Of a stretch of DNA of 64,000 nt, positions 26,776-47,130 are shown piece by piece. The first letter of the stretch is position 1. Each line of letters starts with the position of its first letter. Position numbers and translations under genes: made by a program. The stretch is from Streptomyces pristinaespiralis. Lineage in GTDB: Bacteria > Actinomycetota > Actinomycetes > Streptomycetales > Streptomycetaceae. The DNA is taken from the NCBI RefSeq assembly GCF_001278075.1, contig NZ_CP011340.1, positions 1,054,001 through 1,118,000 of the forward strand, in the 5' to 3' direction. The notes below the pieces were generated by a model that had not been told where the DNA came from, did no database searches, and saw nothing but the letters and a program-made list of their open reading frames with translations.

Positions 26776-28104
26776 TCAGCCCGGCTCCTGCACGTCAGCG
26801 CGCTGAGTACTCCGCGGTCCGGCTGCCGCTTCGGTTGTCAGCAGGCCTGCGAGTTCCCGGCCGAGGGCCGCATCCCGCCTCACCGCCAGGTCCCCCGCAC
26901 CGGCACCCCCACGTGGGCCCTTGGGCACGAGAGCCAGTACGTCGCGCATCGCCCGTTCCCCCACTGCGGCCTTCTGGTATGCGTCCGGGTCGTGGACGAA
27001 GGCGAGGGTCGCTGCGGCGAATACGCCAGGCACATCCCGCCGGCCGGAGGAGAGGCGACTGCGGAGCCTTTCCCGGGAGTCCGCGAGCCCGCCGGGCCGA
27101 CGGAGACCGATCAAGGAGGCCAGTGTGCGGCCACCCAGTTCCGTGAGGCCGTTGCCGAGCAAAGCCGCAACCACGGCTTCCGCCTCCGAATCGGTAGGCT
27201 GCGGCCGGCCAGGGAGGGCGGGCAGCGGGCCGGGCTCGTCCGCGGTGAGGCAGGCCCGGCAGACCAGCGCCCGCATCCTGGGTGACGGATACTCGCCGGC
27301 ACCGGCATGGGGGTCGGCCCCCGCGCTGGTGAGGGCGTCGGTCAGCGTCCACACGTAGGCCGTCCCGCACGCGAGTGCCGCGCACATGTCGGCGAACGCC
27401 TCCCCCAGCCACGGCTCCCACACAGCGATGCGCCCCTGCGCCAGTCCCGTGTCCTCACGCAGTCGTGTCACGAGGGTCGCGGTGAGACCGAAGTCGTCCT
27501 CGATGTGGTGGCCCGTCTCGTGGGCGACAGCCAGCAGGGACGGGATGTGGCGACTTGCCGACCAGGGAATTCCGATGACCGGAAAGGGCAGATGCCGACT
27601 GGCCCGGCGGCCTGCGCCGGTCCGCTGCCTGCCAGGGGCCAGCAGGTCCTCGAAGTCGCTGCCACGGGCGGAGGCGAAAGGCACAGGCTGCCGGTTCAGG
27701 AAGGTCAGCGGCGGCTCCTTGAACACCGACCCCGCTGTTCCCGTCGCTGCGTCCCGGACGGGGCGGTAGAGAGCCCAGGCCAACTCGTCGGTGACGGTCA
27801 ACCATGCCCGGTAGGGGTCGTGGTGGCGCAGCATCAGTTTGCCGCGGAAGAAGTCCCACACATGGTGCAGGTCCAGGACGATCTCGGCCCCCTTCGTGTC
27901 CTGATCGGTAGGCAGCATGGCTGACACGTGTTCCAGCGCGGTTGCCACGACCCTGGCGGCGCTCTCGATCTGCGACCGGTGCGTCGCCATCGGGGCGCTC
28001 TGCGCGATCTTCCGCCAGTCGTCGAGTTCGGACGTCAGCGCTTCCATGGCTTGGCGGACCTCGAACCGGCGCCGGGCGGTGTAGCCGGGGTCCGGGTCTT
28101 CCAT
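26776..28104 (-). CDS. HExxH zinc metallopeptidase (gluzincin-like), last gene of CHAT/STAND operon
   Basis: The ATG at 28104 overlaps the stop of the preceding gene by one base (TGATG), so the two are translationally coupled. The 442-residue protein begins MEDPDPGYTARRRFEVRQAM, with a helical first half. It then carries a zinc-peptidase active site, VAHETGHHIEDDFG near residue 195, and a plausible third ligand Glu in WLGEAFADMCAALACG about 40 residues later, the gluzincin arrangement. No signal peptide or membrane span is seen, so it should act in the cytoplasm. It is not a family I can name. Its place in the operon suggests an effector or a protease processed or released by the CHAT/STAND proteins. 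Confidence 0.8.
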   Translation of the reverse strand: MEDPDPGYTARRRFEVRQAMEALTSELDDWRKIAQSAPMATHRSQIESAARVVATALEHVSAMLPTDQDTKGAEIVLDLHHVWDFFRGKLMLRHHDPYRAWLTVTDELAWALYRPVRDAATGTAGSVFKEPPLTFLNRQPVPFASARGSDFEDLLAPGRQRTGAGRRASRHLPFPVIGIPWSASRHIPSLLAVAHETGHHIEDDFGLTATLVTRLREDTGLAQGRIAVWEPWLGEAFADMCAALACGTAYVWTLTDALTSAGADPHAGAGEYPSPRMRALVCRACLTADEPGPLPALPGRPQPTDSEAEAVVAALLGNGLTELGGRTLASLIGLRRPGGLADSRERLRSRLSSGRRDVPGVFAAATLAFVHDPDAYQKAAVGERAMRDVLALVPKGPRGGAGAGDLAVRRDAALGRELAGLLTTEAAAGPRSTQRADVQEPG

Positions 28105-31100
28105 CAGGTCCGCTCCGGGGTACGCAGGGCGGCCGGGGTGGCGAAGAGCGCGGCGCTGAGGGTCTCGATGACGTCTTGGCCCCAGTCCACTCCGGCAGGG
28201 ATCGTGACGGGGCTCGTGGGTTGGCTGCCGCCGGTGGGCGCCGATCGCAGGGCGCGGTGCAGTTCGTGCAGCGGCTGCTCTTCCGCGATTGCCTGCGCGA
28301 GGAGCGTGGTCTGGTGGAGCGGTGTGCGGATGAGTCCGCATCCGACGACCGCCGGGGCGATACCAGAGGCGAAGAGCGTGGCGGCGAACAGGTTACGGAG
28401 CACGAGCTGGAGGGGGATATCGGCCGGTGAGGCGGGGCGTGGCGGATCGAGCACGATCAGGGGTTGTGTGCCGGGTACGAATCCCGCAAGCCACTCCACG
28501 AGTCGGCTGGGTTCCAGGTCTGATCCGGAGGCTTTGCTCTTCAGACGGTCACCATGGCTGAGTCCGGCGGGCGACAGATCGAAGTAGGGGATGGAGCCGC
28601 TCTTGAGTCGCAGGGGTGCACAGACGTGCAGCAGGGCCGGAGGGCCCTTGCGAGGGGGTGGGAGGGCTGCGGGCGCCCGCAGTCGCCGCACTGTGCAGCC
28701 GTGACTTTCGAAGATTTTCGCCGGCGCCCGGCCGAGTGCGGAGTGAGCCGATGCGTCGCCGGCGTCGCAATGGAGCATGAGGACGGACTTCGCCCCGTAC
28801 TCCGACCTGGCCGATTCGCGCAGTTTCCACAAGGCCGTGGCGACGAGGACCGATACAAGCGTCTTGGACGTGTTGCTCATGTGCTTCGGCAGAGCTGCGA
28901 CGACTCCTGCGGTGATGGCCGTATCGGTGAGAGCGCCGAACACCCCGTCGATCACCAGGTCGACTCCCTGCCCGGCTTTCAGCGCCATCTGGAGGACCCG
29001 CGTGTCTGCCGACTCCGCCGCGTCAGGCAGTGTCCGGTAGAACACTGCGGCCCTTGCCTCGCTCGGCAGATCAGCCAGTTCCCAGGGAAACGCGTGAAGA
29101 GCTGTGTCGTCGGACTGGAGCTGCAGGGCCGACAGCGGGGGGCGGCCCCGGTGAAGGACCTGAAGGCGGCCGCAGCCTGCTGCGGAAGCGTGACGCCAAT
29201 CGTCCAACAGCGAGCGCGCGATCAGAGTGGGGTCGGAGTCACCGTCCCGCTTGAGGATGGGAGAGATGACGCGTTCGGTCTCGGACGGCACACGGAGAGG
29301 GGTGTGCCGTTCGGTTTCCTGGGAGTCGACGGGATGACCGAGATGGGCTGCCATCCGGTTGGCGATCTGCTGGGTCGACGTGTCACCGAGCAGGGCGGCG
29401 CTGGAGTGCAGGATACGAGCGGTCCACGCCGAAGGGCGGTGCACCTGGCTGAGGAACTCGGTCGCGGCCCGCAAAGGATTCTCTCTGCTGTCGGCCGGCT
29501 CGGCAGAAGCGTGCAGCCAGTGCGACACCGCCGTCAGCAGTGGAGCGTCCTGGGGGCTCGCTGAGCAGAGGAGCCGGGTGAGTTCCCGGCCGGGCACGAG
29601 GTCGAGGCGCAAGTGGGCACGCGCTTGCCGCCATGCTTGCAGCGGCTCTCCGCCAGCTGCTCGGCCGAGCTCCTGGTCGGCCTGGACGGTGAGCTGAAGC
29701 GCCTGGTTGAACCGCCCGCGCACACGCGCGAACTCGGCGAGGTACCTGCATCGCATCAGTTCGTCGGAGCTCAGGGGTTCCGGCCCGATGATGTCGTCGA
29801 ACAGGGGCTGGAGCAGCTCCAGCCCGGCGCTTTCGCCGTCGTCCGTACCGGGGGAGGGACACCATGCGAGGTCTTCCAGGACGGCGAGGCGGGCCGCCGG
29901 TGGCTGCATCTTCGCGAGCGCATCAGCCAGGTCACTCACCCGCTCGGGGGCGGTGAGTACGGCGGCCACACCCCCCTGGAGCAGATCCTGTGGTGAAGTC
30001 ATGGGCACCGCGCGCAGCGCACCGTCCACTTCGTATCCCTGACGGTGGAGCTCGGACCACAGCAAGGCACGTTGCACGGACCATGTGCCGGACACATCGG
30101 CGGTTCTCAGGAGGGTGAGTGCGGTGGCGGCCTGGTGCAGATCACCCAGATCGCGGGCGAGGAAGCGGGCATACAGCAGCAGGCACTCGGGGTGACCGTG
30201 GGGAAAGCCGAGGTCGCTCCACAGGCCTGCCGCACGATCGAAGGCCGCTTGTGCGGTGTCCACGGCGAGAAGTTCACCGGCCAGGACGCCCCGAGCCATG
30301 AGGTTCCTCGCCAGGTGACGGTACTTGGCCGGGCCGCCGGCCTTCGCGAGGGCCATGTCGGCTTCGTCCAGGGATGCGAGTGCAGCGCGGGAGTGGCCCA
30401 GTTGCCGATACGCCTGGGACAGTGCGAGGCAGGCTTCGGCCTGCTCGAGTGGGGAGGCGGCGTCCGGGTCCAGCGCGGTGAGGGTGGCGATGGCTCCGGT
30501 CGGTGTGAACGTGCGGAGTTGGTTGCGGGCCTTGCCCAGGAGGGCTCGTCGTTGCAACGCCATCAGTTGGACGTTCTCGGCTCGGGGATCCGTTCCGGCG
30601 GCGGCGCCGCGGTTCACCGGGGTGGCGTCCATGGCGAGCACCGAGTCCTGCAGTGCGAAGGCCTGGTCGAGACGGGTACCACGTTCCAGTTCCTGAGCCA
30701 GCTCGAGGGCGATCAGCGCCTCGCTGGTCGCGGCTCCGCGTTCTCGAGCGGTCACGCGTGCTCGCCGGTACGTGGATTCCGCGTCCGGGTGGGCGAGCGC
30801 CGTCTGGATGCGGGCGAGAATCGTCAGTAGCCGCTCACGCCACTTCCCGTCGGTCTCACTTTCCAGTCCCGACAGGACGAGTTCCGCGGCCTCCGCGTGC
30901 ATGCCCTGGCTGCTTTGCAGGCCGGCGCGGAGGATGACTTCGGCGCTGGCGGTGGGGACCGGGTCGGGTGAGTGTTCCCGGAGCCGGTCGACGAGGGCGA
31001 GGCGGTGTTCGATCTCGTTCCACATCGGGTCGGCGGAGTTGAACTCCGGATTGTCGGCCTGCTTCATGGCCAGGGACATGGCAATGGCCAGATGCGCCTG

Positions 31101-33233
31101 CACCAAGGTCGCGTGGCTGATGAGGGGTTCTCCGTCCAGACGGAGTCGCGGTCGCCCGTCGTCCACGTACTCGGGTCCGAGGATCTCCTCGCTCAGCTCC
31201 CGCACGGCCTCGACGCGGTGGTGATCCTGCATGCGTTCCACGGCGGCCTGCCACACCTGGGCGGCGTTGCCGGCGTCGATCTGGAACCGGTGATAGAGCG
31301 CCTCCTTCGTACAGGCCACCCATTGCTCGGCATCCGTCTCTGCCAGGGCCTCGAAGTGGTCGATGAACGCCTGGTGCAGGTGTTGGGAGACACGTTGGTC
31401 TGCGACCAGTTGGCGCATGGGGGCGAGGACGTTGGTGTGGAAGACCACCACGGAGTCGTCGCCCGCGTGACGGGAGACCCAGGAGGACGAGCTCGCGTAG
31501 TCGAGCAGTCGCCGCCATGCCTGGCGGAGATCCTGCTCCGTCGGCGCTGTCGCCACGGTCGGGAAGATGTCGGCACTTCCCTGCCGGTGATGCCGGTCGT
31601 TGCGCGGATTGTCGGCGCCACTCCTGCCACTGATCCCCGCTGCCAGCCAGGGCTCCATGACAGTGAGCGCCTCCTCCAGCCGTAGTCGGCGGGGAACGAC
31701 TCCGTAGCGCAGCAGCCACCGCACAGCCGGGTCGTCGATGCGCTCGACCACGCGATCGATGAGGTAGCGCAGGTGGGGCTCGTCGTGACCGCGTAACTCC
31801 TGCTCTGTGATCGTGGGTTCCTGATCGATGGCATCGGCGTACAGCGCCAGCTTCAGGGGGAGACCGCCTGCCATGTCGGCCGCCGCGTGAGCGAGCTTGT
31901 TGTCGCGGATCCCCCGTAGGCGGAGGTATCTCATCGCCTGCCTCACGCTCAGCGGTGCTACTTCGCTGTGTTTGGTCTGGCGTCTGCCGAACGAGTCCAT
32001 GGCCTGCGGCAGCCTCTCGCGCAGGTCGTTCCGGCTGGCGAGCGCGAGCCGCAGTCCCGGGCAGCTCTGCAGCAGCCGTCCGAGCAATCGTAGGAACCGC
32101 TCTGCCTCCTGCTGGCCGTGCAGGAGCAGCTCCTCCATGGTGTCGACGACCAGCACCGCCGGGCCTTGCGGGCGTGCGCGGTTCAGCCTCTCGGCGAATG
32201 CGGTGACCAGCTCCTCCTCGACGGCGGCGGAGTCCAGTGAGGCGATGTTCTGAGCCGCTTCCCTGGCAGGTGGGGAGGGCCGCCGTGCCAAGAGGATCCG
32301 GTAGGCGGCGTAGTCGTCCAGTCGTTCGAAGGGTCGACCCGGGAGTCGCCTGTCGAACTGGTCCGCGATCTCCAACAGGACGAGCCATGGGTGCCGGCCC
32401 ACGGCACGGGCGCTGATGACGTCGAAGTCGATCCGGGCGCACGGTACGTCGTTCGGTTCAGGGACGCAGTACCGGGCGACGATCCAGCGCAGCTGCATGG
32501 TCTTCCCGGCCCCCCCTTGGCCGTAGAGCTGCCAGACGCGCCGCCGGCCGCCCAGCCAGCGTTCGATGTTCCTCTCGAGTCCTCTGGGCAGAAGGAATTG
32601 TGCCGCGCGGGCGTAGTCCGCCGCCCAGTACGAGCGTGCTCGGACGTAGCCTGCGCGATCCGCGAGGACTTCCTGCAGTGCGTTCGGAAGTCGGGGACCG
32701 CGGTCGGCGTCGGCCAGGACGTCGATGAGGTCCTGGCAGGCGGGGAAGTCACGCAACCGGTCGGCTTCGGTGAACAGGCGCTCGAACATCACGCGGGCGG
32801 TATCCGGCGAGGGGAGCAACAGGTGGCGTAGCTCTTCGGTTTCGTCACCTGTGGTTCGTAGATGGCCGGCGATGCGTTCCTCGAGCTGGTGCAGTCTGCC
32901 GGTGAGCTCGGGGCGGCCCGGGTCGAACCACTGATGGAAGTAGCCGCTGCGCACCTCGTCGGCCAACGCGTAGCTTCCCGGTTCGCCGGCGACCGGGTGC
33001 ACTGTGCTGGTCGAGAGAAGGTCGTCCAGGGAAGGAGTGGCGATCTCTTCCGCCGCCGCCCAGGGGTGCAGCACCTCGTCGTAGAGGACGGAGGTGAAGG
33101 TACGGGCGGCGGCGCAGGCCCGTAGGACGGGCGCCCAGGAGGGAGGCACGAGGGAGCGGCAGATCGTACTGGGACTTTCCCCCGTGGCCAGCCTGCGGGC
33201 GATCTCCAGCAACGTGTCTGTGCCGTTGGTCAT
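28104..33233 (-). CDS. giant STAND ATPase with repeat region and CHAT-like C-terminus
   Basis: ATG 33233 (MTNGTDTLLEIARRLATGES) overlaps the stop of the CHAT-ATPase gene by 4 bp (ATGA). The 1709 residues comprise an N-terminal helical region (1-220), a STAND/AAA ATPase with Walker A LYGQGGAGKTMQ (near 240) and Walker B VLVVDTMEELLLH (near 360), a winged-helix-like part and a long helical TPR-like array (about 700-1250; EACLALSQAYRQLGHSRAAL). The C-terminal ~350 residues resemble a CHAT domain: FPWELAD near 1385 and ALLHVCAP near 1537. Where active CHAT proteases have a Cys (VVLNAC), this one reads PLIVLDPPRP, so it may be a pseudo-protease. It probably serves as sensor/scaffold. Confidence 0.85.
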   Translation of the reverse strand: MTNGTDTLLEIARRLATGESPSTICRSLVPPSWAPVLRACAAARTFTSVLYDEVLHPWAAAEEIATPSLDDLLSTSTVHPVAGEPGSYALADEVRSGYFHQWFDPGRPELTGRLHQLEERIAGHLRTTGDETEELRHLLLPSPDTARVMFERLFTEADRLRDFPACQDLIDVLADADRGPRLPNALQEVLADRAGYVRARSYWAADYARAAQFLLPRGLERNIERWLGGRRRVWQLYGQGGAGKTMQLRWIVARYCVPEPNDVPCARIDFDVISARAVGRHPWLVLLEIADQFDRRLPGRPFERLDDYAAYRILLARRPSPPAREAAQNIASLDSAAVEEELVTAFAERLNRARPQGPAVLVVDTMEELLLHGQQEAERFLRLLGRLLQSCPGLRLALASRNDLRERLPQAMDSFGRRQTKHSEVAPLSVRQAMRYLRLRGIRDNKLAHAAADMAGGLPLKLALYADAIDQEPTITEQELRGHDEPHLRYLIDRVVERIDDPAVRWLLRYGVVPRRLRLEEALTVMEPWLAAGISGRSGADNPRNDRHHRQGSADIFPTVATAPTEQDLRQAWRRLLDYASSSSWVSRHAGDDSVVVFHTNVLAPMRQLVADQRVSQHLHQAFIDHFEALAETDAEQWVACTKEALYHRFQIDAGNAAQVWQAAVERMQDHHRVEAVRELSEEILGPEYVDDGRPRLRLDGEPLISHATLVQAHLAIAMSLAMKQADNPEFNSADPMWNEIEHRLALVDRLREHSPDPVPTASAEVILRAGLQSSQGMHAEAAELVLSGLESETDGKWRERLLTILARIQTALAHPDAESTYRRARVTARERGAATSEALIALELAQELERGTRLDQAFALQDSVLAMDATPVNRGAAAGTDPRAENVQLMALQRRALLGKARNQLRTFTPTGAIATLTALDPDAASPLEQAEACLALSQAYRQLGHSRAALASLDEADMALAKAGGPAKYRHLARNLMARGVLAGELLAVDTAQAAFDRAAGLWSDLGFPHGHPECLLLYARFLARDLGDLHQAATALTLLRTADVSGTWSVQRALLWSELHRQGYEVDGALRAVPMTSPQDLLQGGVAAVLTAPERVSDLADALAKMQPPAARLAVLEDLAWCPSPGTDDGESAGLELLQPLFDDIIGPEPLSSDELMRCRYLAEFARVRGRFNQALQLTVQADQELGRAAGGEPLQAWRQARAHLRLDLVPGRELTRLLCSASPQDAPLLTAVSHWLHASAEPADSRENPLRAATEFLSQVHRPSAWTARILHSSAALLGDTSTQQIANRMAAHLGHPVDSQETERHTPLRVPSETERVISPILKRDGDSDPTLIARSLLDDWRHASAAGCGRLQVLHRGRPPLSALQLQSDDTALHAFPWELADLPSEARAAVFYRTLPDAAESADTRVLQMALKAGQGVDLVIDGVFGALTDTAITAGVVAALPKHMSNTSKTLVSVLVATALWKLRESARSEYGAKSVLMLHCDAGDASAHSALGRAPAKIFESHGCTVRRLRAPAALPPPRKGPPALLHVCAPLRLKSGSIPYFDLSPAGLSHGDRLKSKASGSDLEPSRLVEWLAGFVPGTQPLIVLDPPRPASPADIPLQLVLRNLFAATLFASGIAPAVVGCGLIRTPLHQTTLLAQAIAEEQPLHELHRALRSAPTGGSQPTSPVTIPAGVDWGQDVIETLSAALFATPAALRTPERT

Positions 33234-35269
33234 CGGCGCACCCCCAGGGCGTTGGCCGCTTCGAGCCACTGCGGCACATGCGGAGTCAACGTGTGGAACA
33301 GGTCGACGGCGAAGAACTCGCCCGCGGTCTCCTGGTAACTCTGCAGGAAGTTGAGGACCTTTTCATCAGGGACATACCCGAGTCGGCTGCTGTATGCCCG
33401 CGCCAGCCGTATGAGCTCTGATGTTCTGAAATCTCCGACCTGGACTCTGCCGATCATGTGTGCGTCGGACTCGCGCAGGGCGGGGCTCACACTCTCCTCA
33501 CGAGCGACGATGACGAGTCGCACCGCGGGTGGCTTGCCGTACGCGACGGGTTGGATCAGGCCCTCGTAGAGTTCGCCCGCGAGAGAATCCGGCATGATGC
33601 ACTCCGTGTGGTCCAGAGCCAGCACCAGCCGCTGAGCACCCGCGGCACCGGACAGAGCGTCGAGGAATGCGGAGAAGATGCCGGCCTTCCGCTCGTCGGC
33701 CCGTGCCGCTTCGTCGTTGAACCCGCGGCCCTCGTCGACTTCGGGTCGATGCTCGTTCGGAGCCGTTCTCGCACTGCCGAGGACGAGCTGGTTGAGTTCC
33801 GCATTGAACTTCGCGAAGGCGTCCTTGGGAATCGGGCACAGCTGATCCGGAGAGGTGGCCTGGTCGCGGATCATCCGTAAGACGGTCAGCCAGTCCTTGT
33901 TCCTCACGCCGCCCCCCGGCCGCCCCCCGGCCGGACCCGACCTGCCGGCCAGGTCCACGGAAACAATGTGATGCCCCCTCAGGAACCAGGTCAAGAGGCA
34001 CCAATGAGCCAGCCACGTCTTGCCGGTCCTGTGATGACCGGTCTGTGAATGGCCGCTGATGACGAGCACTGAGCGATCCATGGCGGCGGGCGAGGCGTGC
34101 GGGGCGTCCACAGCCCACCAGGCCTGCCTCCGCTCCTCGGAACGGCCCACGAATCGGCGAAGCTCGGCGTACGGCCTGCTCCGCAGAATGTCGCGGAGGA
34201 CGTCGGCAGCGGGGCGGAACGCGACGGGCAGTACAGCATCGGGTTCGCAGCAGGTCAGGAGCACCGGCAGCGCCCATACGCCGGTGCGCACTGGCATCCG
34301 GGCGAGCGCTGCACGGGCCGCGGCCACGCACATGTCCACGGGGCTTGACTCCGCCAGCCGCGCGTAGAACGTGTCCGAAAAGACCACCGCGGCATCCGAC
34401 TCGATGTCAGCCTGCATGGACACCACCGCCCCTGCCCCGGCGTCGAGGAAGGCCCTGGCCACCCCACCGACCCAATCAGCAGGGTCGGCTGCTGAACGGC
34501 AGGCGTTGAGCACCACCAGGCGAGGCTGATGGTTGGCCAGAGCCGGCACATCGTCGGCCGTGAGGGACCACGGTTCGCCCGACGTAGGGGTGAAGACCAG
34601 TTCGGGACCGCCGATGCCGGGGCGCGGCATGCCGTGAGCGATGAAGTGGAGGATGTGGGGGCGCAGTCGGTCGATGGCGTCCGACAGCGCGGCCGCGCTC
34701 GCCGGATCATCGAGCACTTCCAGGTGAACACGTGCCGGAGCGCTCTCCAGAGCCCCGGACATGGCCGCGAGCTCCTGCTCCGCCAGAAATTCCTCATCGT
34801 GCGCAGGAGTGCCGATGACGACCAGCACCCGTAGCGGGCCAAGCTCCGTTGGGCCGGCCTCGACTGTTCGGGCCGTCCCACGTCTGATCAGCAGTTCAGG
34901 CCTGTTCCACAGCCACCATCCGTGCTGCCACATCAGCTCCCACGGCAGCCCTCTCAGCTCGGAGGGCTCGACGTCCAGCACCACCCGAACCGGGTCCTGC
35001 CGTGTCGCGCCGCCGCGGAGTCGGTCCCACTGCGCCGCCAGACCTCCACCGAGCAAGGCACGGCACAGGACTTCTCCGGCATCCCGGCGGATGCCCTCAT
35101 CGGCGTCGCGATCGAAGACCGTGTCGAACCCACGGTCAAAGTCGATACTCCCCAGCGAACAACGGCTCTCATGCCCCCCGTCCACTGACAGATGGACCGT
35201 GTAGTCGCTCTCCCTGCCTCGCCCTGAGCCGAACGAGCCGGCAATTCGCAGAACAGCCTTGCTTGCCAT
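33230..35269 (-). CDS. CHAT-family caspase-like protease fused to P-loop ATPase
   Basis: The 679-residue protein starts at ATG 35269 (MASKAVLRIAGSFGSGRGRE). Residues 1-330 form a CHAT peptidase domain: GLPWELMWQ, catalytic His in LHFIAHGMPRPG (near 211) and catalytic Cys in LVVLNACRSAAD (near 255), both intact. From about 370 comes FVGRSEERRQAWW and then an ATPase with Walker A SQTGHHRTGKTWL (near 413) and Walker B-like LVLALDHTECI (near 560). The C-terminal helical part resembles a STAND winged-helix arm. Active CHAT proteases paired with STAND sensors work as regulated death or defence effectors in bacteria. It lies 18 bp behind the 272-aa gene. Confidence 0.88.
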   Translation of the reverse strand: MASKAVLRIAGSFGSGRGRESDYTVHLSVDGGHESRCSLGSIDFDRGFDTVFDRDADEGIRRDAGEVLCRALLGGGLAAQWDRLRGGATRQDPVRVVLDVEPSELRGLPWELMWQHGWWLWNRPELLIRRGTARTVEAGPTELGPLRVLVVIGTPAHDEEFLAEQELAAMSGALESAPARVHLEVLDDPASAAALSDAIDRLRPHILHFIAHGMPRPGIGGPELVFTPTSGEPWSLTADDVPALANHQPRLVVLNACRSAADPADWVGGVARAFLDAGAGAVVSMQADIESDAAVVFSDTFYARLAESSPVDMCVAAARAALARMPVRTGVWALPVLLTCCEPDAVLPVAFRPAADVLRDILRSRPYAELRRFVGRSEERRQAWWAVDAPHASPAAMDRSVLVISGHSQTGHHRTGKTWLAHWCLLTWFLRGHHIVSVDLAGRSGPAGGRPGGGVRNKDWLTVLRMIRDQATSPDQLCPIPKDAFAKFNAELNQLVLGSARTAPNEHRPEVDEGRGFNDEAARADERKAGIFSAFLDALSGAAGAQRLVLALDHTECIMPDSLAGELYEGLIQPVAYGKPPAVRLVIVAREESVSPALRESDAHMIGRVQVGDFRTSELIRLARAYSSRLGYVPDEKVLNFLQSYQETAGEFFAVDLFHTLTPHVPQWLEAANALGVRR

Positions 35270-35287
35270 CGTTTCTCTCGCGCAGCT

Positions 35288-36106
35288 CTACTGGTCAGTG
35301 ATCCCGAAAGGCTGATCGTCCGCACCGAGAACTTCGATGACTGATCGGGGGTCTTCGTGTGCTTCGTCGACCAGCGCAGGAGGAACCGGGACCGGTCCTG
35401 CGCCACGGCCCGGCTGCCGTGGACCGTAGTCCTGCTTCACCTTGCCGAACCAGCCCTTCCTGAGGCCGACGACACGGAAGAACGGAGTACACCCCTGGTC
35501 GCTCGTCCAGTGCAGGCCGAGGCCTTTCGCCCGCGCCACCGAGACTCGGCCTGCCACATCGGCGAGGCCGAGCTGCGCCTGTCCGGCCCCCGCTTGCAAA
35601 CGCAGTTCGGCGGAGGCGCTGGTACCTGCCGCCGTCAGTACCGTGCCCGACTCCGCTGCGATCACGTGCGTCACCGCGAGCAGGGAGTCGTCCCACGTCT
35701 CCCACGTGAGGCGTACGAGTGCTGCGGCGATGGCGCGCTCGTCTGTCACGCCGTTCTCGACCAGCCCTCGGTAGACGATGAGAGCGGAGTCGTCCTTCTC
35801 GAAGGTGACCAGGGCACCGAGGTCAGCCACCGCCAACGCGGTGACCCCGTCCATTGCGACGCCGGCCGTTTTGAACCGCACAGCCGCGGAGCCCTGCGTG
35901 GCATACAGGTAGTCGTTGTGCGGAGTGCCGCCGCGTGAAGCAAACGTCACGCCGCGATCGGAGAGTGCCCCGGCGGGTCGGACCCGGCTGTCCGAAAGAT
36001 GAAACACGTCCCCCAGGTGAACCGACTGCGACAAAGGCCAAGCCGTCCACCAGTCGCGCCACACATCGCGCACCGCGTCCCGATACACCTCGTACGACTC
36101 TTTCAC
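35288..36106 (-). CDS. unrecognised 272-aa protein, first gene of CHAT/STAND operon
   Basis: GTG 36106 follows GGGGGACGG closely and starts a protein VKESYEVYRDAVRDVWRDWW of 272 residues, ending PFGITDQ. Tryptophan-rich helices (WRDWWTAWPLSQSVHLGDVF) are followed by an alternation of beta strands (TALAVADLGALVTFEKDDSA; LIVYRGLVENGV) and a C-terminal part ending in a Pro/Gly-rich segment. No signal peptide, membrane span or known catalytic motif is visible. Because it leads an operon of two CHAT proteins and a peptidase, it may be a sensor, an inhibitor or the substrate cleaved by the CHAT enzyme. I do not recognise the family. Confidence 0.75.
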   Translation of the reverse strand: MKESYEVYRDAVRDVWRDWWTAWPLSQSVHLGDVFHLSDSRVRPAGALSDRGVTFASRGGTPHNDYLYATQGSAAVRFKTAGVAMDGVTALAVADLGALVTFEKDDSALIVYRGLVENGVTDERAIAAALVRLTWETWDDSLLAVTHVIAAESGTVLTAAGTSASAELRLQAGAGQAQLGLADVAGRVSVARAKGLGLHWTSDQGCTPFFRVVGLRKGWFGKVKQDYGPRQPGRGAGPVPVPPALVDEAHEDPRSVIEVLGADDQPFGITDQ

Positions 36107-37268: not shown

Positions 37269-38186
37269 TCAGCGGGTGGTGGTGTTGCGGTCGGAGACGA
37301 GGCTGGCGATGGCCCGGTAGGTGGTGGGCAGGGTCTCGCGGCGGTGTGTTCCGCGGACCAGTTGTTTCCAGCGTTTGTGGTCGGCGAGGGCGTGTTCGAC
37401 GGTGATGCGTTTCGGGGAGTGCCGGTGTCGGGCTCGTAGGCGGGCTTCGAGGACCTCGGGCGGGCTGATCTTGTTTCCCTTCCTGGGCGGGGTCACCGCC
37501 TGGCCGGGATGGTCACGGCGGAGGCCGAGGTTGCCGTCGTCCAGGAGGATCTCCACGTCGGCGAAGTGTCGGAAGCAGGTATCGATGCCTTCGTTGCGTG
37601 CGACGGTCGCATCGTGCATCCGCCTTGGTCGCAGAGCATCGGTCCAGAACGTGCGGCCCTGGGCGTCGGCGATGACGGTGGCCTTCATCGTGTTCTGCTT
37701 CTTCTTGCCCGAGACGAACGCACGCCTGCCGCCGCGGCCGGCCAGGGGGCGGCGGACCTGGATCTCGGTGGCGTCCAGCCGCAGCTCGATACCCTCGGCC
37801 TGGGCGTAGGCGAACACATCCGCCAAGGTCCGCAGCCGCAGGTTCGGACGGTCGGGAACCGCACATCCCCGGCCGGCCAGAAGCGTACGTATCTCGCCGA
37901 TGGCCCGGGTGACGGTGGAGCGGTCGACAAGGAACAGCAAGGCGAGGACGGAGTGCGGGAGATCGTGCCGCAAGTGAATCAGCGTGACGACCAGCCGGTC
38001 GACGAAGACCAGCTGGTGTCGGGGGCCGCGTCCTGCCGCTCGCTTCCTGGCCCCGCCGCGTGCCTCGTGACGGCGCCCCTCGACCACGGCCTGCCACGGG
38101 CCAGCCAACTCCTCGACTAAGCAAGCGGGACGCTGCCGGGAGATCCCCGTGAACAACTGATGCGCGAGAACCGCTTGACTGACCAT
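37269..38186 (-). CDS. IS5-family transposase (DDE_Tnp_4 type)
   Basis: ATG 38186 (MVSQAVLAHQLFTGISRQRP) gives an uninterrupted 305-residue protein; a GTG lies 7 codons upstream. The N-terminal helix-turn-helix region (VDRLVVTLIHLRHDLPHSVL; VDRSTVTRAIGEIRTLLA) precedes a DDE catalytic core: Asp in ELRLDATEIQVRRP, Asp in EILLDDGNLG, Glu in ITVEHALADHKRWKQLV. It appears intact and may be active. I could not convince myself of terminal inverted repeats, so element ends are not given. It lies beside an IS3 orfA fragment that its insertion may have cut. Confidence 0.85.
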   Translation of the reverse strand: MVSQAVLAHQLFTGISRQRPACLVEELAGPWQAVVEGRRHEARGGARKRAAGRGPRHQLVFVDRLVVTLIHLRHDLPHSVLALLFLVDRSTVTRAIGEIRTLLAGRGCAVPDRPNLRLRTLADVFAYAQAEGIELRLDATEIQVRRPLAGRGGRRAFVSGKKKQNTMKATVIADAQGRTFWTDALRPRRMHDATVARNEGIDTCFRHFADVEILLDDGNLGLRRDHPGQAVTPPRKGNKISPPEVLEARLRARHRHSPKRITVEHALADHKRWKQLVRGTHRRETLPTTYRAIASLVSDRNTTTR

Positions 38187-38258
38187 GATCGCCACAGACG
38201 GTGTCACCCACCAGCACAGACGTCCTCACCCGCTGTCACGCACCAGCTCGTTAGAGTC

Positions 38259-38427: not shown

Positions 38428-39738
38428 TCAGGGAAAAGGATGAGGGTCAGGGTTGAGGTCGGCCATCTGATGGCGTCGATAGCCCAGTCGAGCCGGGACT
38501 GTGAAGACCCGGGCTCCTCCCATGTAGCGGTACCGGTGGTCATTGTCCAGCGGCTGAGCATGCGGGACGACACTTCTCACGACGCGGAACCCGAAGTCGG
38601 CGACATCTTCGGTAGTGACGTCGACCCAGAATGCTTCCAAACCAGCCCGGTGGAGAGATCTCGAGATCGAGATCTCTCCACCGGGAAACCGGTCGCACAC
38701 CTCTGTGAAAGTCAACTGCGGTCCGTCGTCCGTGAGGAAGCCAAGCCGCGAACGGAGGACTTGGGACGAAGCGTGGACGTTGAGATGATCACGCAGGGTC
38801 CGGACGGTGTGACTTCTGGGTTCCCCGGCGATGGGCTGCACACGACTGCGATTGATTAGCACACGAGTGAGTGCCGCCTCCTCGAGGGCGAGGAGAAGTG
38901 CGCGTTGTGGGTCCGCATTTGCGGCCATACCAAAAGAAGTGCGTGGAGGATCGCCTGGATCGATTAGAGCGGCGCTGATGATCGGCACGTCAACATCGAG
39001 CGTGAGGAGGTTGATATGCCAAGTGGGGCCACTCGGGGACTCGGCGGCCAACAGGCGATCAATGAGCCGATCAAGCCCAAGACAGCTGGATGCGTTGATC
39101 CGAGGAACAGGCATGCGATTATGCCATATGATCATGAACGCATCTCGTTCGAGGATTTCGAGGATGCCTTTATCGATCGCCTCCCCTGTCGACCTTTGTG
39201 CAGCCAAGCCGGTAGAGATCGGCATGTGCGTGAACGGTTCTACCCTTCGGTCGAAAAGATAGGGAGTGTAGACGCAACTTGCCGGCACGAAAGCATGCGC
39301 ACCGGTGCGGGTAGAAGTTGCCTGCACCCAGGATATTGACCGGCCGTCCGTGAGATCGTAGGGAAAGCCATCATCGGTCACCGACGAGCCGAACGGGTAA
39401 AGCTCTTCCACTGGCACATAGCTATCGCCCGCTGCAGAAAGTTCCGCACAGGAAGCATATGCTCTTTCAGTATTGCGAAAAAAGGCCGAGCAGTACCTCT
39501 CGATCGACTCACCGCAGGCGCGGATTACTGCGCGATCTCGTGACGGCGAACAGGCCGCACCTTTGTTGGCGGCGGCGATGCCAACTAAGGCAGACGTGTC
39601 ACAAGGTTCTGCATACGCCATGAAGACATCCGGGTCATTAGGGGATACTTTTACCAGTTCGACACGACGGATGACTCCCGTACGCTCGTCAACCAAAGCG
39701 CCGAACTCCATCAGCGCGGAACTGTAGTCGGTGTTCAT
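38428..39738 (-). CDS. YcaO-domain azoline-forming cyclodehydratase
   Basis: The 436-residue protein starts at ATG 39738 (MNTDYSSALMEFGALVDERT), overlapping the preceding gene's stop by 4 bp. It is a YcaO ATP-dependent cyclodehydratase: GIAAANKGAACSPSRDRAVI, then ACGESIERYCSAFF and STGLAAQRSTGEAIDKGILE ILERD carry the ATP-binding Glu-rich motifs. The C-terminus LNPDPHPFP is the Pro-rich PxPxP tail seen in azoline-forming YcaO enzymes. With the E1-like partner it would cyclise Cys residues of the precursor to thiazolines. A 19-bp palindrome lies inside the gene. The codon choice is less GC-biased than in the flanking housekeeping-like genes. Confidence 0.93.
   Translation of the reverse strand: MNTDYSSALMEFGALVDERTGVIRRVELVKVSPNDPDVFMAYAEPCDTSALVGIAAANKGAACSPSRDRAVIRACGESIERYCSAFFRNTERAYASCAELSAAGDSYVPVEELYPFGSSVTDDGFPYDLTDGRSISWVQATSTRTGAHAFVPASCVYTPYLFDRRVEPFTHMPISTGLAAQRSTGEAIDKGILEILERDAFMIIWHNRMPVPRINASSCLGLDRLIDRLLAAESPSGPTWHINLLTLDVDVPIISAALIDPGDPPRTSFGMAANADPQRALLLALEEAALTRVLINRSRVQPIAGEPRSHTVRTLRDHLNVHASSQVLRSRLGFLTDDGPQLTFTEVCDRFPGGEISISRSLHRAGLEAFWVDVTTEDVADFGFRVVRSVVPHAQPLDNDHRYRYMGGARVFTVPARLGYRRHQMADLNPDPHPFP
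38646..38685. repeat. long perfect palindrome inside YcaO gene
   Basis: The arms at 38646-38664 and 38667-38685 are perfectly complementary over 19 bp with a 2-bp centre. They encode, on the minus strand, the stretch around GGEISISRSLH, which looks low-complexity compared with the surrounding conserved protein. Confidence 0.85.
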
Positions 39739-40877: not shown

Positions 40878-42221
40878 CTAAGATGACGCCTTCTTCGCAT
40901 AGGAGAGCACCTGCTCAACGCTCAAGTTTGAGACGAATTGGGGGTACTGGATTTTACCCCGATTATCGCCGACGTAAAAAGATTTGCAGACGTTGTTGAT
41001 GTAGCGACGACCCTTGCCTGTGACGACATAGTCATCGCCATCAAGCTTCAGGACCCCTAGGTCACTCAGCTCGTCGAATACACGACCGAATATCTCCTCT
41101 GGCTCTACTCCGAAGCGCTCAATGAATCCAGCACGCGGCACCCTCTGAAACTTTACTCCAAGGACAAAATACCTGGACATGAGCTCCATAGACGTCGCCT
41201 GGTGAGCCAATGCGATCGGATCGCGACCCGCAAATATCTCCTTCTCGTAATTGAGTAGGTCAGCGTGATTGCAGTAGATATGCCCGTTCATGAACGAGTA
41301 ACTGCTGACGCCAAAGCCGACATAGTCGCATTGAGGAGCAACGAAGGCCACTCGGTTGTGAACGCTGCGATATCCGTGTTTGGCAAAGTTGAAAGCTCCA
41401 TACTCCTCGTAGCCCAGGCCGAGAAGAACCTCTCTCACCACGTCGTCCATCTCATTCAGCTGTGACTCATCGAGTCGACTGGGAAGCAGGCCAGCACCTT
41501 CCCGCAACTTCAAAGCGGTAAAAGGGATGATTTCAAGGCGAAAACAGGAAAGATGAGACGCCCCTGTGGCCGCTGCTCGAGTGAGATCCTCTCGAAGACA
41601 GTCGACCGTCTGCCCGGGTACACCATATATAACGTCAAGCGAGAAGTTGTCGAACCCCGCTTGGTGTACCACTTCAATAGCATCTTCCACATCCCCAGCA
41701 CGATGCGGGCGTCCAATCGTACGCAGAACTTGGTCGTCGAATGATTGAACGCCGATACTGATACGGTTGATGCCGCCTTTTGCATATGTTTCCGCCTTAT
41801 CGGATGTGAAGCTGATGGGGTTGACCTCGATTGTCACCTCGGCGTCAGATGAAACATCACAGCAGGAGTCGATCAGCCGCTTGATTGAAATTAGATCTTC
41901 GGCATCGATTGCCGAAGGAGTCCCACCACCGAAATGACCACATACGAACCGATGGCCATTTAGCCTACCGGCGTCAGCGTAGCGTCTGATTTCGGTGGAA
42001 AGCGCCTCCATGTAGCGGGCGATGTGAGCGCCCTTCGACCGCTGCACGGAGAATCCGCAGTAGTCGCAGATGGCCGTGCAGAACGGAATGTGAACGTAGT
42101 AGCCGGCTGGGGAGGGGGTCCACACGGTCGACGCCTCTTGCGCGTTCAGCACGAGCGGGTACCAGGCAACGAACTCATTGTCCTTCTTTGCCCAGATGTC
42201 AGAAGGCCCAGCGTCATTCAT
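40878..42221 (-). CDS. HemN-like radical SAM enzyme (class C methyltransferase candidate)
   Basis: ATG 42221 is preceded at 4 nt by GGAGGT; it overlaps the SagB-like stop by 8 bp. The 447-residue protein has the radical-SAM cluster motif CTAICDYCGFS (near residue 52), the SAM-binding GGGTPSAI, then INRISIGVQSFDDQVLRTIG and DVIYGVPGQT, all HemN/HemW-like. The C-terminal HemN domain (YVGFGVSSYSFMNG; YFVLGVKFQRVPRAGFIERF) is present. In RiPP clusters, HemN-like proteins are class C radical SAM methyltransferases (NosN, TbtI) that methylate thiazoles or indoles. That assignment here is by context. Lower GC and the RBS AGGAGGT-like site differ from neighbours. Confidence 0.9.
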   Translation of the reverse strand: MNDAGPSDIWAKKDNEFVAWYPLVLNAQEASTVWTPSPAGYYVHIPFCTAICDYCGFSVQRSKGAHIARYMEALSTEIRRYADAGRLNGHRFVCGHFGGGTPSAIDAEDLISIKRLIDSCCDVSSDAEVTIEVNPISFTSDKAETYAKGGINRISIGVQSFDDQVLRTIGRPHRAGDVEDAIEVVHQAGFDNFSLDVIYGVPGQTVDCLREDLTRAAATGASHLSCFRLEIIPFTALKLREGAGLLPSRLDESQLNEMDDVVREVLLGLGYEEYGAFNFAKHGYRSVHNRVAFVAPQCDYVGFGVSSYSFMNGHIYCNHADLLNYEKEIFAGRDPIALAHQATSMELMSRYFVLGVKFQRVPRAGFIERFGVEPEEIFGRVFDELSDLGVLKLDGDDYVVTGKGRRYINNVCKSFYVGDNRGKIQYPQFVSNLSVEQVLSYAKKASS

Positions 42222-43029
42222 CGCTACCTCCAAGAACCAGCGCGTGAACGACGATCTCCTCGATGCCATCTAGCCCAAGATCGGCAGCGAGGCCGTCGTC
42301 GTCGAAGCCCCCCACCGCGGTTGCCCGGAGGCCCAGGTGCTCAGCGGTGAGGAGAACGTTCTGAGCGGCATGTCCGGCGTCCAGCAGTACGAGTCGGTAA
42401 CCCCGGTCGCCATACTTGCACAAGCTGCGTTCCAACGGAGCCACAAAAAGCATGCAGAGAGCGGCTTCCGTTGCGAAGTCCTGCCAAAAGAATCCCTCGG
42501 TGAGGATTTCATGGGGATGGCGCGCAGATCGCCGTTCAAGTTCGTGTGTCAAGAAATTGTAGTGATACAGGCCTGGCTCCAAGCCATGCACCCTCTGTAC
42601 GACGACATAAAAATCAATTGGATAGAGGCCCCCAGCCGACGGCCAAGCGCGCAGAACCTGACTGACGCCGAATTCAGTATTCTTCGTGACGTTCGTCGGC
42701 CCGAGCGACATCTGAAGGAGAGATGCCAATTTGGACAATTCAATCTCTCTAGAAACTTCCCGACTCGACCGGCGTCGATTAAGCAGTTCGCGAAGGTTGA
42801 TATTGGCGCCTACTTCTGATTCTGGTAGTGCAATGCGCTGGGCGTGACTATATTGGCGGAAGCCTCTGCTAGTGACAAATAGGTCGAACGGAGCCACAGC
42901 GAACTGGCCGGCGATTTGTTGTGCGTGAAACGCACTGAGCTTTGTGTTCTCGTGGTATATTTCGCAGAGTCTGCCGCTGCCCTGCTCAGCGAGTGTCTGG
43001 GTCGTTCCGTTTTCCCAGGAAATCTCCAT
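42214..43029 (-). CDS. SagB-type FMN dehydrogenase (azoline oxidase)
   Basis: The protein of 271 residues starts at ATG 43029 (MEISWENGTTQTLAEQGSGR). It has the nitroreductase-like SagB fold: ELLNRRRSSREVSREIELSK (FMN phosphate site), RAWPSAGGLYPIDFYVVVQR, LEPGLYHYNFLTHELE, LLDAGHAAQNVLLTAEHLGL and TAVGGFDDDGLAADLGL. SagB-type enzymes oxidise thiazolines and oxazolines to aromatic azoles. It is the second gene of the cluster, about 95 bp behind the precursor, and that gap contains a strong stem-loop. Confidence 0.92.
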   Translation of the reverse strand: MEISWENGTTQTLAEQGSGRLCEIYHENTKLSAFHAQQIAGQFAVAPFDLFVTSRGFRQYSHAQRIALPESEVGANINLRELLNRRRSSREVSREIELSKLASLLQMSLGPTNVTKNTEFGVSQVLRAWPSAGGLYPIDFYVVVQRVHGLEPGLYHYNFLTHELERRSARHPHEILTEGFFWQDFATEAALCMLFVAPLERSLCKYGDRGYRLVLLDAGHAAQNVLLTAEHLGLRATAVGGFDDDGLAADLGLDGIEEIVVHALVLGGSDE

Positions 43030-46334: not shown

Positions 46335-47130
46335 GTGACAGTAGTGATCACGGCGTCGGAGCCGTCTTGGATAGCCCCGTTCACCGGGCTGAACCCGCGC
46401 GCTTACCGCAACTGATCACAATGCTGCGCCACGAGTATGCCGAAGTGCTGCAGCCGGGACGACCATGGTCGCTACCGCTGGAAGACCGGGCATTGCTCGT
46501 CGCCGCCTACTGGGGCACCAACCTGACGCTGCGGCAGCTCGCCCCGCTGTTCGGCATCTCGAAGTCCGCGGCCGACCGGATCGTGGCCCGCACCGGCCCA
46601 CTGCTCGCGCTCAAGCAGTGACAGCGTTTCCGCAAGGGCACGGTGCTCAACGCGGACGACACCCTGGTTCCCACTCGCGACCACAGCATCGCCGAACAGT
46701 TCAAGAACCACAGGTACTCCACCAACCACCAGGTCGTCATCGGCGCCGACACTCGGCTCGTCGTGGTGGTCGGCCGGCCCCTGCCCGGCAACCGCAACGA
46801 CTGCAAGGCGTGGGAGGAGTCGGGCGCGAAGGCCGCCGTCGGCAAGACCGTGACGATCGTCGACGGCGGCCATCCAGGCACCGGGCTCGTGATGCCCCAC
46901 CGTCGCCGCAAAGGCAAAGACCTGCCCGACTGGAAACACGCCCACAACAAGTCCCACAAACAGGTCCGCACCGGCGTCGAACACGTCTTTGCCCGCATGA
47001 AGACCTGGAAGCTCCTCCGCGACTGTCGCCCCTTCAAGGCGACGGCGTCCACCACGCCATGCCCGAGATCGCCCGCCTGCGATCATTTACTGGACAGGCC
47101 TTAGCGACTCCCCGCCACTCATTTCGATAG
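46335..47130 (+). pseudogene. IS5-family transposase with three lesions
   Basis: GTG 46335 opens VTVVITASEPSWIAPFTGLN, but the frame is lost near 46410 (one C missing). It is regained as LPQLITMLRHEYAEVLQPGR, hits a TGA at 46619-46621 in LALK-Q-stop-QRFRKGTVL, and goes on through YSTNHQVVIGADTRLVVVVG, LPGNRNDCKAWEESGAKAAV, VEHVFARMKTWKLLRDCRPF and a last frameshift near 47035 to GDGVHHAMPEIARL. The DDE core of an IS5-type transposase is recognisable, but the gene is dead. The 187 bp after it (47131-47317) hold a minus-strand phrase (RTTLRPCARLRLELTALIRT) that may be another transposase end. Confidence 0.85.

Follow-up and report, generated by a model that had tools for sequence, protein, structure and literature searches.

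The window analysed here, 64,000 nucleotides of the Streptomyces pristinaespiralis contig NZ_CP011340.1 (positions 1,054,001 to 1,118,000), carries a four-gene operon that is real and conserved and probably mobile. As judged by its predicted structure, the first gene very likely encodes an effector of the gasdermin fold, whose partners are a CHAT and a STAND protein. The four genes lie on the minus strand at 26776..36106 and are transcribed in the order gene 1, gene 2, gene 3, gene 4 (Table 1). Genes 1 and 2 are separated by a gap of 18 bases, genes 2 and 3 overlap by ATGA, and genes 3 and 4 overlap by TGATG—an arrangement given in the initial annotation and confirmed from the open reading frames (ORFs). 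The operon sits in a single contig of 8.5 Mb, and the genome is rated 100% complete.

Gasdermins are the pore-formers of inflammatory cell death in animals. The product of gene 1 had been left as an unknown protein, a status that still holds for Pfam but that missed its gasdermin fold. The predicted structure features the fold of the gasdermin N-terminal domain: in a Foldseek search of PDB structures, gasdermins fill rows 1 to 15 of 140, the best at a probability of 1.00. The next structural class is that of the cytolysin pore-formers, whose fold is related to that of gasdermins. Because of this fold, gene 1 is the likely effector of the operon, and the adjacent gene, 18 bases downstream, encodes a protease, as in gasdermin systems. 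Within the domain, the predicted structure has its lowest confidence at residues 83–92 and ~171–190, between long strands, the positions where gasdermins bear their membrane hairpins. The domain is followed by a linker, a candidate activating cleavage site, whose GRG motif is present in 18 of the 21 gene-1 proteins having an adjacent gene 4 (it is missing in loci L021, L023, and L109). The C-terminal tail has a predicted local distance difference test score (pLDDT) of 94–96 at residues 241–260 and is conserved across a 31-row alignment. The part of PMC10989679 used here describes bacterial gasdermins (bGSDMs) as kept inactive by a short C-terminal peptide, and by this likeness the tail of gene 1 may be inhibitory. 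A search of plasmids with gene 1 gave no match at E 1e-5. The small proteins of known conflict systems (CATASP, EACC1, and others) were considered as well and rejected, as gene 1 has no Pfam match at E ≤ 1.

Gene 2 features a Pfam CHAT domain at residues 64–335 (E 5.7e-26), in which H208, H212, and C257 are invariant across the 31 aligned rows, one of which is the window protein. His212 and Cys257 are the presumed catalytic pair, as in other members of the CHAT family. The domain together with these residues predicts a CHAT peptidase with intact His and Cys, as initially proposed. The P-loop ATPase assigned to the same protein is borne out by the resemblance of this region to the STAND domain of gene 3 (hhalign probability 97.6). 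The best PADLOC match of gene 2 is SAVED_CHAT (E 1.1e-10), and the only PDB sequence match at E ≤ 1 is the CHAT domain-containing protein 8tl0 (E 0.0013). A PADLOC match to BovA lies at chance level.

Gene 3 belongs to the P-loop STAND/NACHT ATPases, with Pfam matches to AAA_22 (E 9.9e-8, 32.8 bits at a cut-off of 27) and NACHT (E 6e-7, 29.9 bits at a cut-off of 26.7). The Walker A residues G241, G243, and K244 as well as D364 are found in 30 of 30 rows. Its C-terminus resembles the CHAT domain of gene 2 (hhalign probability 96.5, E 8.7e-10). The window protein has Pro in place of both the CHAT Cys and the second His, and the active site is thus lost. The STAND and CHAT-like parts of the original description therefore stand, whereas the proposed repeat array is weak (Pfam TPR_8, E 0.13). 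Comparison of gene 3 with PDB sequences yielded nothing useful, and a scan of genome contigs with gene 3 alone returned 22 pattern matches, none of them a relative.

Gene 4 has no Pfam match at E up to 1, and its family profile gave nothing useful against PDB sequences. The HExxH motif noted earlier is present, and the conservation of H195, E196, H199, and E235 in 39 of 39 rows predicts an HExxH metallopeptidase with a downstream Glu. The role of Glu235 as a ligand is assumed from the gluzincin pattern. The AlphaFold2 model has a pLDDT of 88.4 (built for row P0033, with T66A as the difference from the window protein); gluzincins are among its structural matches but weak, and there is no clear fold match in the PDB. 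A PADLOC match to peptidase_U41 (E 0.0012) is too weak for use.

Table 1. Features of the operon and its surroundings, in window coordinates
Feature	Position	Strand	Description
Gene 1	35288..36106	-	GTG start, 272 amino acids; gasdermin-fold, predicted pore-forming effector
Gene-1 linker, residues 229-241	35384..35422	-	pLDDT ~69 (231-240); conserved PRQPGRGA; candidate activating cleavage site
Gene-1 C-terminal tail, residues 242-272	35291..35383	-	Candidate autoinhibitory peptide
Gene 2	33230..35269	-	679 amino acids; CHAT (caspase-related) protease with C-terminal P-loop ATPase domain
Gene-2 catalytic His212 to Cys257	34499..34636 (His212 34634-34636; Cys257 34499-34501)	-	Presumed catalytic; read from sequence
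Gene 3	28104..33233	-	1709 amino acids; STAND/NOD-like receptor (NLR)-like ATPase, TPR-like middle (weak), pseudo-CHAT C-terminus; predicted sensor and scaffold
Gene-3 CHAT-like domain without catalytic residues, residues 1330-1709	28107..29246	-	hhalign to gene-2 CHAT
Gene 4	26776..28104	-	442 amino acids; divergent HExxH...E metallopeptidase-like protein
Gene-4 HExxH (HETGH, residues 195-199)	27508..27522	-	Invariant in 40-row alignment and in 39 locus/window rows
Gene-4 Glu235 in GExFAD	27400..27402	-	Invariant; candidate third zinc ligand
DDE_Tnp_4-type transposase pieces	37269-38207; 46643-47104	-; +	On either side of the low-GC stretch
YcaO gene	38428-39738	-	Pfam E 2.4e-51
Radical-SAM gene	40878-42269	-	Pfam E 1.8e-26
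tRNA-Phe	46991-47067	-	ARAGORN; inside the second transposase piece

A scan with the gene-4 alignment recovered at least 38 loci, and all counts out of 38 refer to the listed loci. Neighbour matches were counted at ≥45 bits, and families were defined by E<1e-8 with 40% coverage. Genes were called by a crude codon-position rule with starts that are often too long, such that the great length of the gene-2 ORFs of L031, L033, and L035 is possibly artefactual; in the alignment used to assess residue conservation, rows from the loci were cut back close to the aligned start. The order 2-3-4 is kept in 28 of the 38 loci, and all four genes occur together in 14. Since genes 2, 3, and 4 recur in the same order, their association goes beyond chance; their homologues are not usually found apart, and the STAND/CHAT/metallopeptidase unit makes, as had been suggested, a good candidate for a conflict system. 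By record title, actinobacteria account for 32 loci, and the others are spread over several other phyla. The remaining 10 loci comprise L049 with the order 4-2-3; L047, close to a contig end, with gene 4 and only the end of gene 3; L038, in which gene 4 lies amid CHAT proteins; L041 with gene 4 and a matrixin, where no CHAT or STAND was found; L046 (positions 130-2262, from a Beijerinckiaceae metagenome-assembled genome), where an intact CHAT domain and the metallopeptidase domain of gene 4 are joined in one ORF of 710 residues; and, in Streptomyces, five loci (L024, L026–L029) with genes 1 and 4, where likewise no CHAT or STAND was found. In these five, a radical-SAM gene overlaps the end of gene 4, after the gasdermin-fold gene and gene 4 (scanned in L024); in L024 the pair is closely preceded by ApbE and FMN-binding genes, a neighbourhood of redox type.

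The gene next to the core changes between loci. Gene 1 is the neighbour in 19 of the 38 loci (the 14 full sets included), and its slot is occupied in six by a two-helix membrane protein, the two helices being judged by eye. Trypsins are found in five loci (L034, L035, L042, L045, and L048; in L034 the trypsin adjoins a second gene-4 copy and not the core), matrixins in three, a subtilase in one, and metallophosphoesterases in two (L031 additionally has an alpha/beta hydrolase); L040 and L046 have no recognised neighbour. The trypsin label in L042, L045, and L048 and the two-helix label everywhere except in L043 were given by similarity to scanned members. In loci whose neighbour is not gene 1, a profile search of six-frame translations, later loci included, detected no relative of gene 1 at E<0.5. 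Streptomycetaceae genomes added three more two-helix loci (L095–L097). The two-helix proteins of L033, L039, L043, and L097 (and of L095 and L096) bear, ahead of a conserved stretch at the C-terminus, a GARP-like motif comparable with the RGAxP of the gasdermin linker. This likeness is possibly a shared cleavage site and possibly chance, a GAxP-like motif being too short to test in linkers so rich in proline and alanine. All five trypsins feature an I[IV]GG zymogen-type start after R, S, or F, and no signal peptide is apparent by eye.

On the gene-4 tree, the neighbour type changes nine times, with a minimum of seven and a mean of 22.5 after shuffling; none of 200 shuffles was as low. L049, L038, and L040 were flagged as long branches, and the joining of L040 with L049 is possibly false. 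The neighbour label follows the gene lineage and not the host family, since Micromonosporaceae occur in the gasdermin, the two-helix, and the matrixin groups. The initial annotation had offered the metallopeptidase as a second effector. A role of gene 4 as activator or regulator fits the data better, as the enzyme next to it varies (trypsin, matrixin, subtilase, phospholipase D); its own constancy across the 38 loci follows from the construction of the gene-4-seeded scan.

Further relatives extend the range of the core. At L094:3768-10879, genes 2 and 3 adjoin a DUF7379 protein of 510 residues and gene 4 was not found, which perhaps makes this locus another core variant; a further CHAT protein (729 residues) lies there on the opposite strand. 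The Sinorhizobium plasmid L114 carries relatives of genes 2, 3, and 4 (tblastn E 7e-28, 3e-45, and 1e-38, respectively). Upstream of these, at L114:248-1816, are a 285-residue protein with several hydrophobic stretches and a 226-residue protein, neither of which matches Pfam. A conjugative plasmid of Bradyrhizobium (L115:7733-13376) features a phospholipase D, a gene-4 relative, and two CHAT genes in series, with a patatin-like gene and an S8 peptidase gene close by.

Gene 1 is also found outside the operon. Among 297 Streptomycetaceae genomes, gene 4 is present in 9, gene 1 in 9, and both in 4. Five genomes have a gene-1 relative and no gene 4, and in four of them a CHAT gene lies upstream: immediately so in L089 (a TPR-CHAT gene with overlapping start), L090, and L093, and at ~1.3 kb in L092. 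The gene-2 CHAT profile scored L093 at E 0.1 only, compared with E 4.1e-10 for Pfam. A wider gene-1 profile matched 6 of 394 genomes of the class, namely the window's own and those of L109–L113; L109 carries the complete four-gene operon in another family. At L112:3748-4720, an actinobacterial locus, a truncated gene 1 beside a gene-2-like CHAT stretch looks like a decayed copy, and in L111 the neighbour is a 430-residue protein with no Pfam match. The part of PMC12881547 used here reports that a TPR-bearing CHAT protease activates a gasdermin in Podospora.

The operon differs in composition from its surroundings. The G+C content at third codon positions (GC3) is 0.77–0.83 in the operon genes and 0.92–0.97 in four other window genes. 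Upstream of gene 1, at a distance of 1.2 kb, is a DDE transposase gene with a GC3 of 0.83, and a low-GC stretch with the YcaO and radical-SAM genes comes next. The low GC3, the nearby transposase, and the low-GC neighbourhood fit a horizontal gain of the operon. The YcaO/radical-SAM stretch itself has a GC content of 0.54–0.58, far under that of the other measured genes, and is possibly a peptide-modifying cluster of foreign origin.

The operon is probably a suicide-type defence module in which a predicted gasdermin-like pore protein would be freed by proteolysis. Gene 3, the STAND/NLR-like protein, would sense an infection signal via its repeats and assemble with the ATPase domain of gene 2, a relative of its own, whereby the CHAT protease would be switched on. 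The latter would cut gene 1 in the low-confidence linker and remove the C-terminal tail; the freed protein could then insert into the membrane, and the cell would die before phage release. The cut is assigned to CHAT because CHAT genes stand beside gasdermin-fold relatives outside the operon and because of the Podospora report. Gene 4 would most likely act as a second protease of the same chain that amplifies or completes effector release, since it is retained when the genes next to it are swapped. The computed support consists of the fold match, the conservation of the CHAT and HExxH...E residues and of the gene order, the active-site loss of the second CHAT domain, the swapping of candidate effectors, and the CHAT genes next to outside relatives.

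Several observations weigh against this scheme. The best structural matches of gene 1 reach whole-chain TM-scores of only 0.38–0.45, and the root-mean-square deviation is large in several alignments. Gene 1 has no match in Pfam (E ≤ 1) and no gasdermin match in NCBIfam, and its family profile finds no gasdermin among PDB sequences; a search of viral structures gave no gasdermin among the 50 matches listed, with 0 of 189 at E ≤ 0.001. In addition, gene 1 lacks an N-terminal cysteine for a lipid anchor—the sole Cys of the window protein is Cys206—and is hence termed gasdermin-fold and not a member of the bGSDM clade. In the part of PMC10989679 used here, a lipidated N-terminal cysteine is a feature of structurally studied bGSDMs and not of every gasdermin. 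On the side of the loci, the seeding by gene 4 biases the set toward gene-4 carriers, the gene-2 profile detects no CHAT in two loci that lack gene 4 but have a relative of gene 1 (L091 and L110), and the five Streptomyces loci with genes 1 and 4 show no CHAT in the fetched 18–21 kb, such that CHAT is not a close partner everywhere.

The last observation is the main evidence for another order of events, which is on the whole unlikely: that gene 4 and not CHAT makes the cut, CHAT activating gene 4 and gene 4 freeing the effector of the given locus, be it a gasdermin, a trypsin zymogen, a matrixin, or a subtilase. The pairing of gene 4 with a matrixin in L041, the second gene-4 copy beside a trypsin in L034, the fusion in L046, and the activation-type site retained by all five trypsin partners point the same way, as does the adherence of the gene-4 tree to the neighbour type (9 changes versus 22.5). 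The linker GRG, common next to gene 4, is missing at that position in the L089 relative, which has no gene 4. However, this contrast is confounded by descent, the descent of whole operons could yield the same tree pattern, and among the five genomes with a relative of gene 1 but no gene 4, four carry a CHAT gene upstream of that relative.

A role in developmental or housekeeping cell death of multicellular actinobacteria, in place of phage defence, would suit the predominance of actinobacterial loci, most of which come from mycelial genera. It is improbable in view of the patchy presence of gene 4 (9 of 297 Streptomycetaceae genomes), the GC3 of the operon below that of other window genes, the plasmid-borne relatives in Sinorhizobium and Bradyrhizobium, and the loci in several other phyla. 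There is an even slimmer chance that a generic twisted β-sheet has produced a spurious gasdermin match and that gene 1 is unrelated; the lack of sequence matches in the searches made, the low TM-scores, and the listed viral matches would agree with this, but the leading Foldseek rows are gasdermins throughout, the next class consists of cytolysin pore-formers, and CHAT neighbours are seen independently of this operon. Least plausible of all, gene 4 would be the killing effector, an indiscriminate protease, with gene 1 as a membrane anchor or accessory and not a pore-former: the invariant HExxH...E residues would suit such a role, but the lytic and degradative enzymes that change beside gene 4 would then be redundant, and gene 1 matches the gasdermin fold.

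The operon shares features with several known systems, the published accounts being those parts of the sources used here. With the bGSDM systems (PMC10989679, PMC12881547), it has in common a gasdermin-fold protein of ~270 residues, a short C-terminal tail, the gene of a caspase-related protease beside it, and a predicted proteolytic release; gene 1 differs by its lack of detectable sequence similarity in the searches made and of the N-terminal cysteine, and the operon by its extra metallopeptidase. In the CARD-NLR systems of Lysobacter and of Caulobacter (LypABC), a protease fused to a C-terminal ATPase is paired with an NLR-like ATPase and another protease, and the killer is exchangeable, being a gasdermin, a phospholipase, or an endonuclease (PMC13236601). 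Compared by architecture only, the operon and its 38 loci follow the same layout, with candidate killers that are swapped likewise. However, the ATPase protein of the operon bears CHAT and not trypsin, an HExxH metallopeptidase takes the place of the second trypsin-containing protein, and the NLR-like protein carries a pseudo-CHAT domain. Fungal pairs, in Podospora and others, likewise feature a gasdermin gene adjoining that of a TPR-bearing CHAT protease. Among gasdermin-linked fungal proteases, ~17% are CHAT according to PMC10989679, while PMC12881547 gives ~17% for cysteine proteases, CHAT included. In contrast to the operon, the fungal clusters are mostly of two genes, without a metallopeptidase or a STAND/pseudo-CHAT protein.

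The NTP-dependent conflict systems (VMAP, iSTAND, EACC1; Kaur et al. 2020, PMC7159879) resemble the operon in joining an ATPase, a caspase-like protease, and a variable effector in multicellular bacteria, and the sections of that paper compared set out similar logics, among them one with a zincin-type metallopeptidase acting on small peptides as their processing enzyme. The four operon genes, in contrast, have no Pfam match to vWA, MoxR, VMAP, or EACC1; the word gasdermin is absent from the main text of that paper, and the parts compared contain no such four-gene set. The SAVED-CHAT protease shares the CHAT peptidase with gene 2, which differs by having no SAVED match in Pfam and by its ATPase domain. 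Protease-gated nucleases are exchanged between defence systems (PMC12799240, in the part used), the same principle as the exchange of neighbours seen here. In the literature searched, no named system matches the operon and no title or abstract start describes it, which is not proof of its being unpublished.

Tentatively, the operon may represent a bacterial inflammasome of a new class. Its mobile core would consist of CHAT, STAND, and metallopeptidase, with gene 4 as the universal activator of interchangeable killers (gasdermin, trypsin, matrixin, subtilase), many of them as inactive precursors, together with an actinobacterial gasdermin family invisible to sequence search. The operon would add a gasdermin family missed by sequence searches, link it to CHAT—a caspase relative and the protease type most like that of the animal inflammasome—and provide a core in bacteria for which the swapping of the killer gene between lineages can be seen. 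It raises the testable questions of whether an NLR–caspase–gasdermin wiring operates in Streptomyces and how one sensor core drives unrelated killers.
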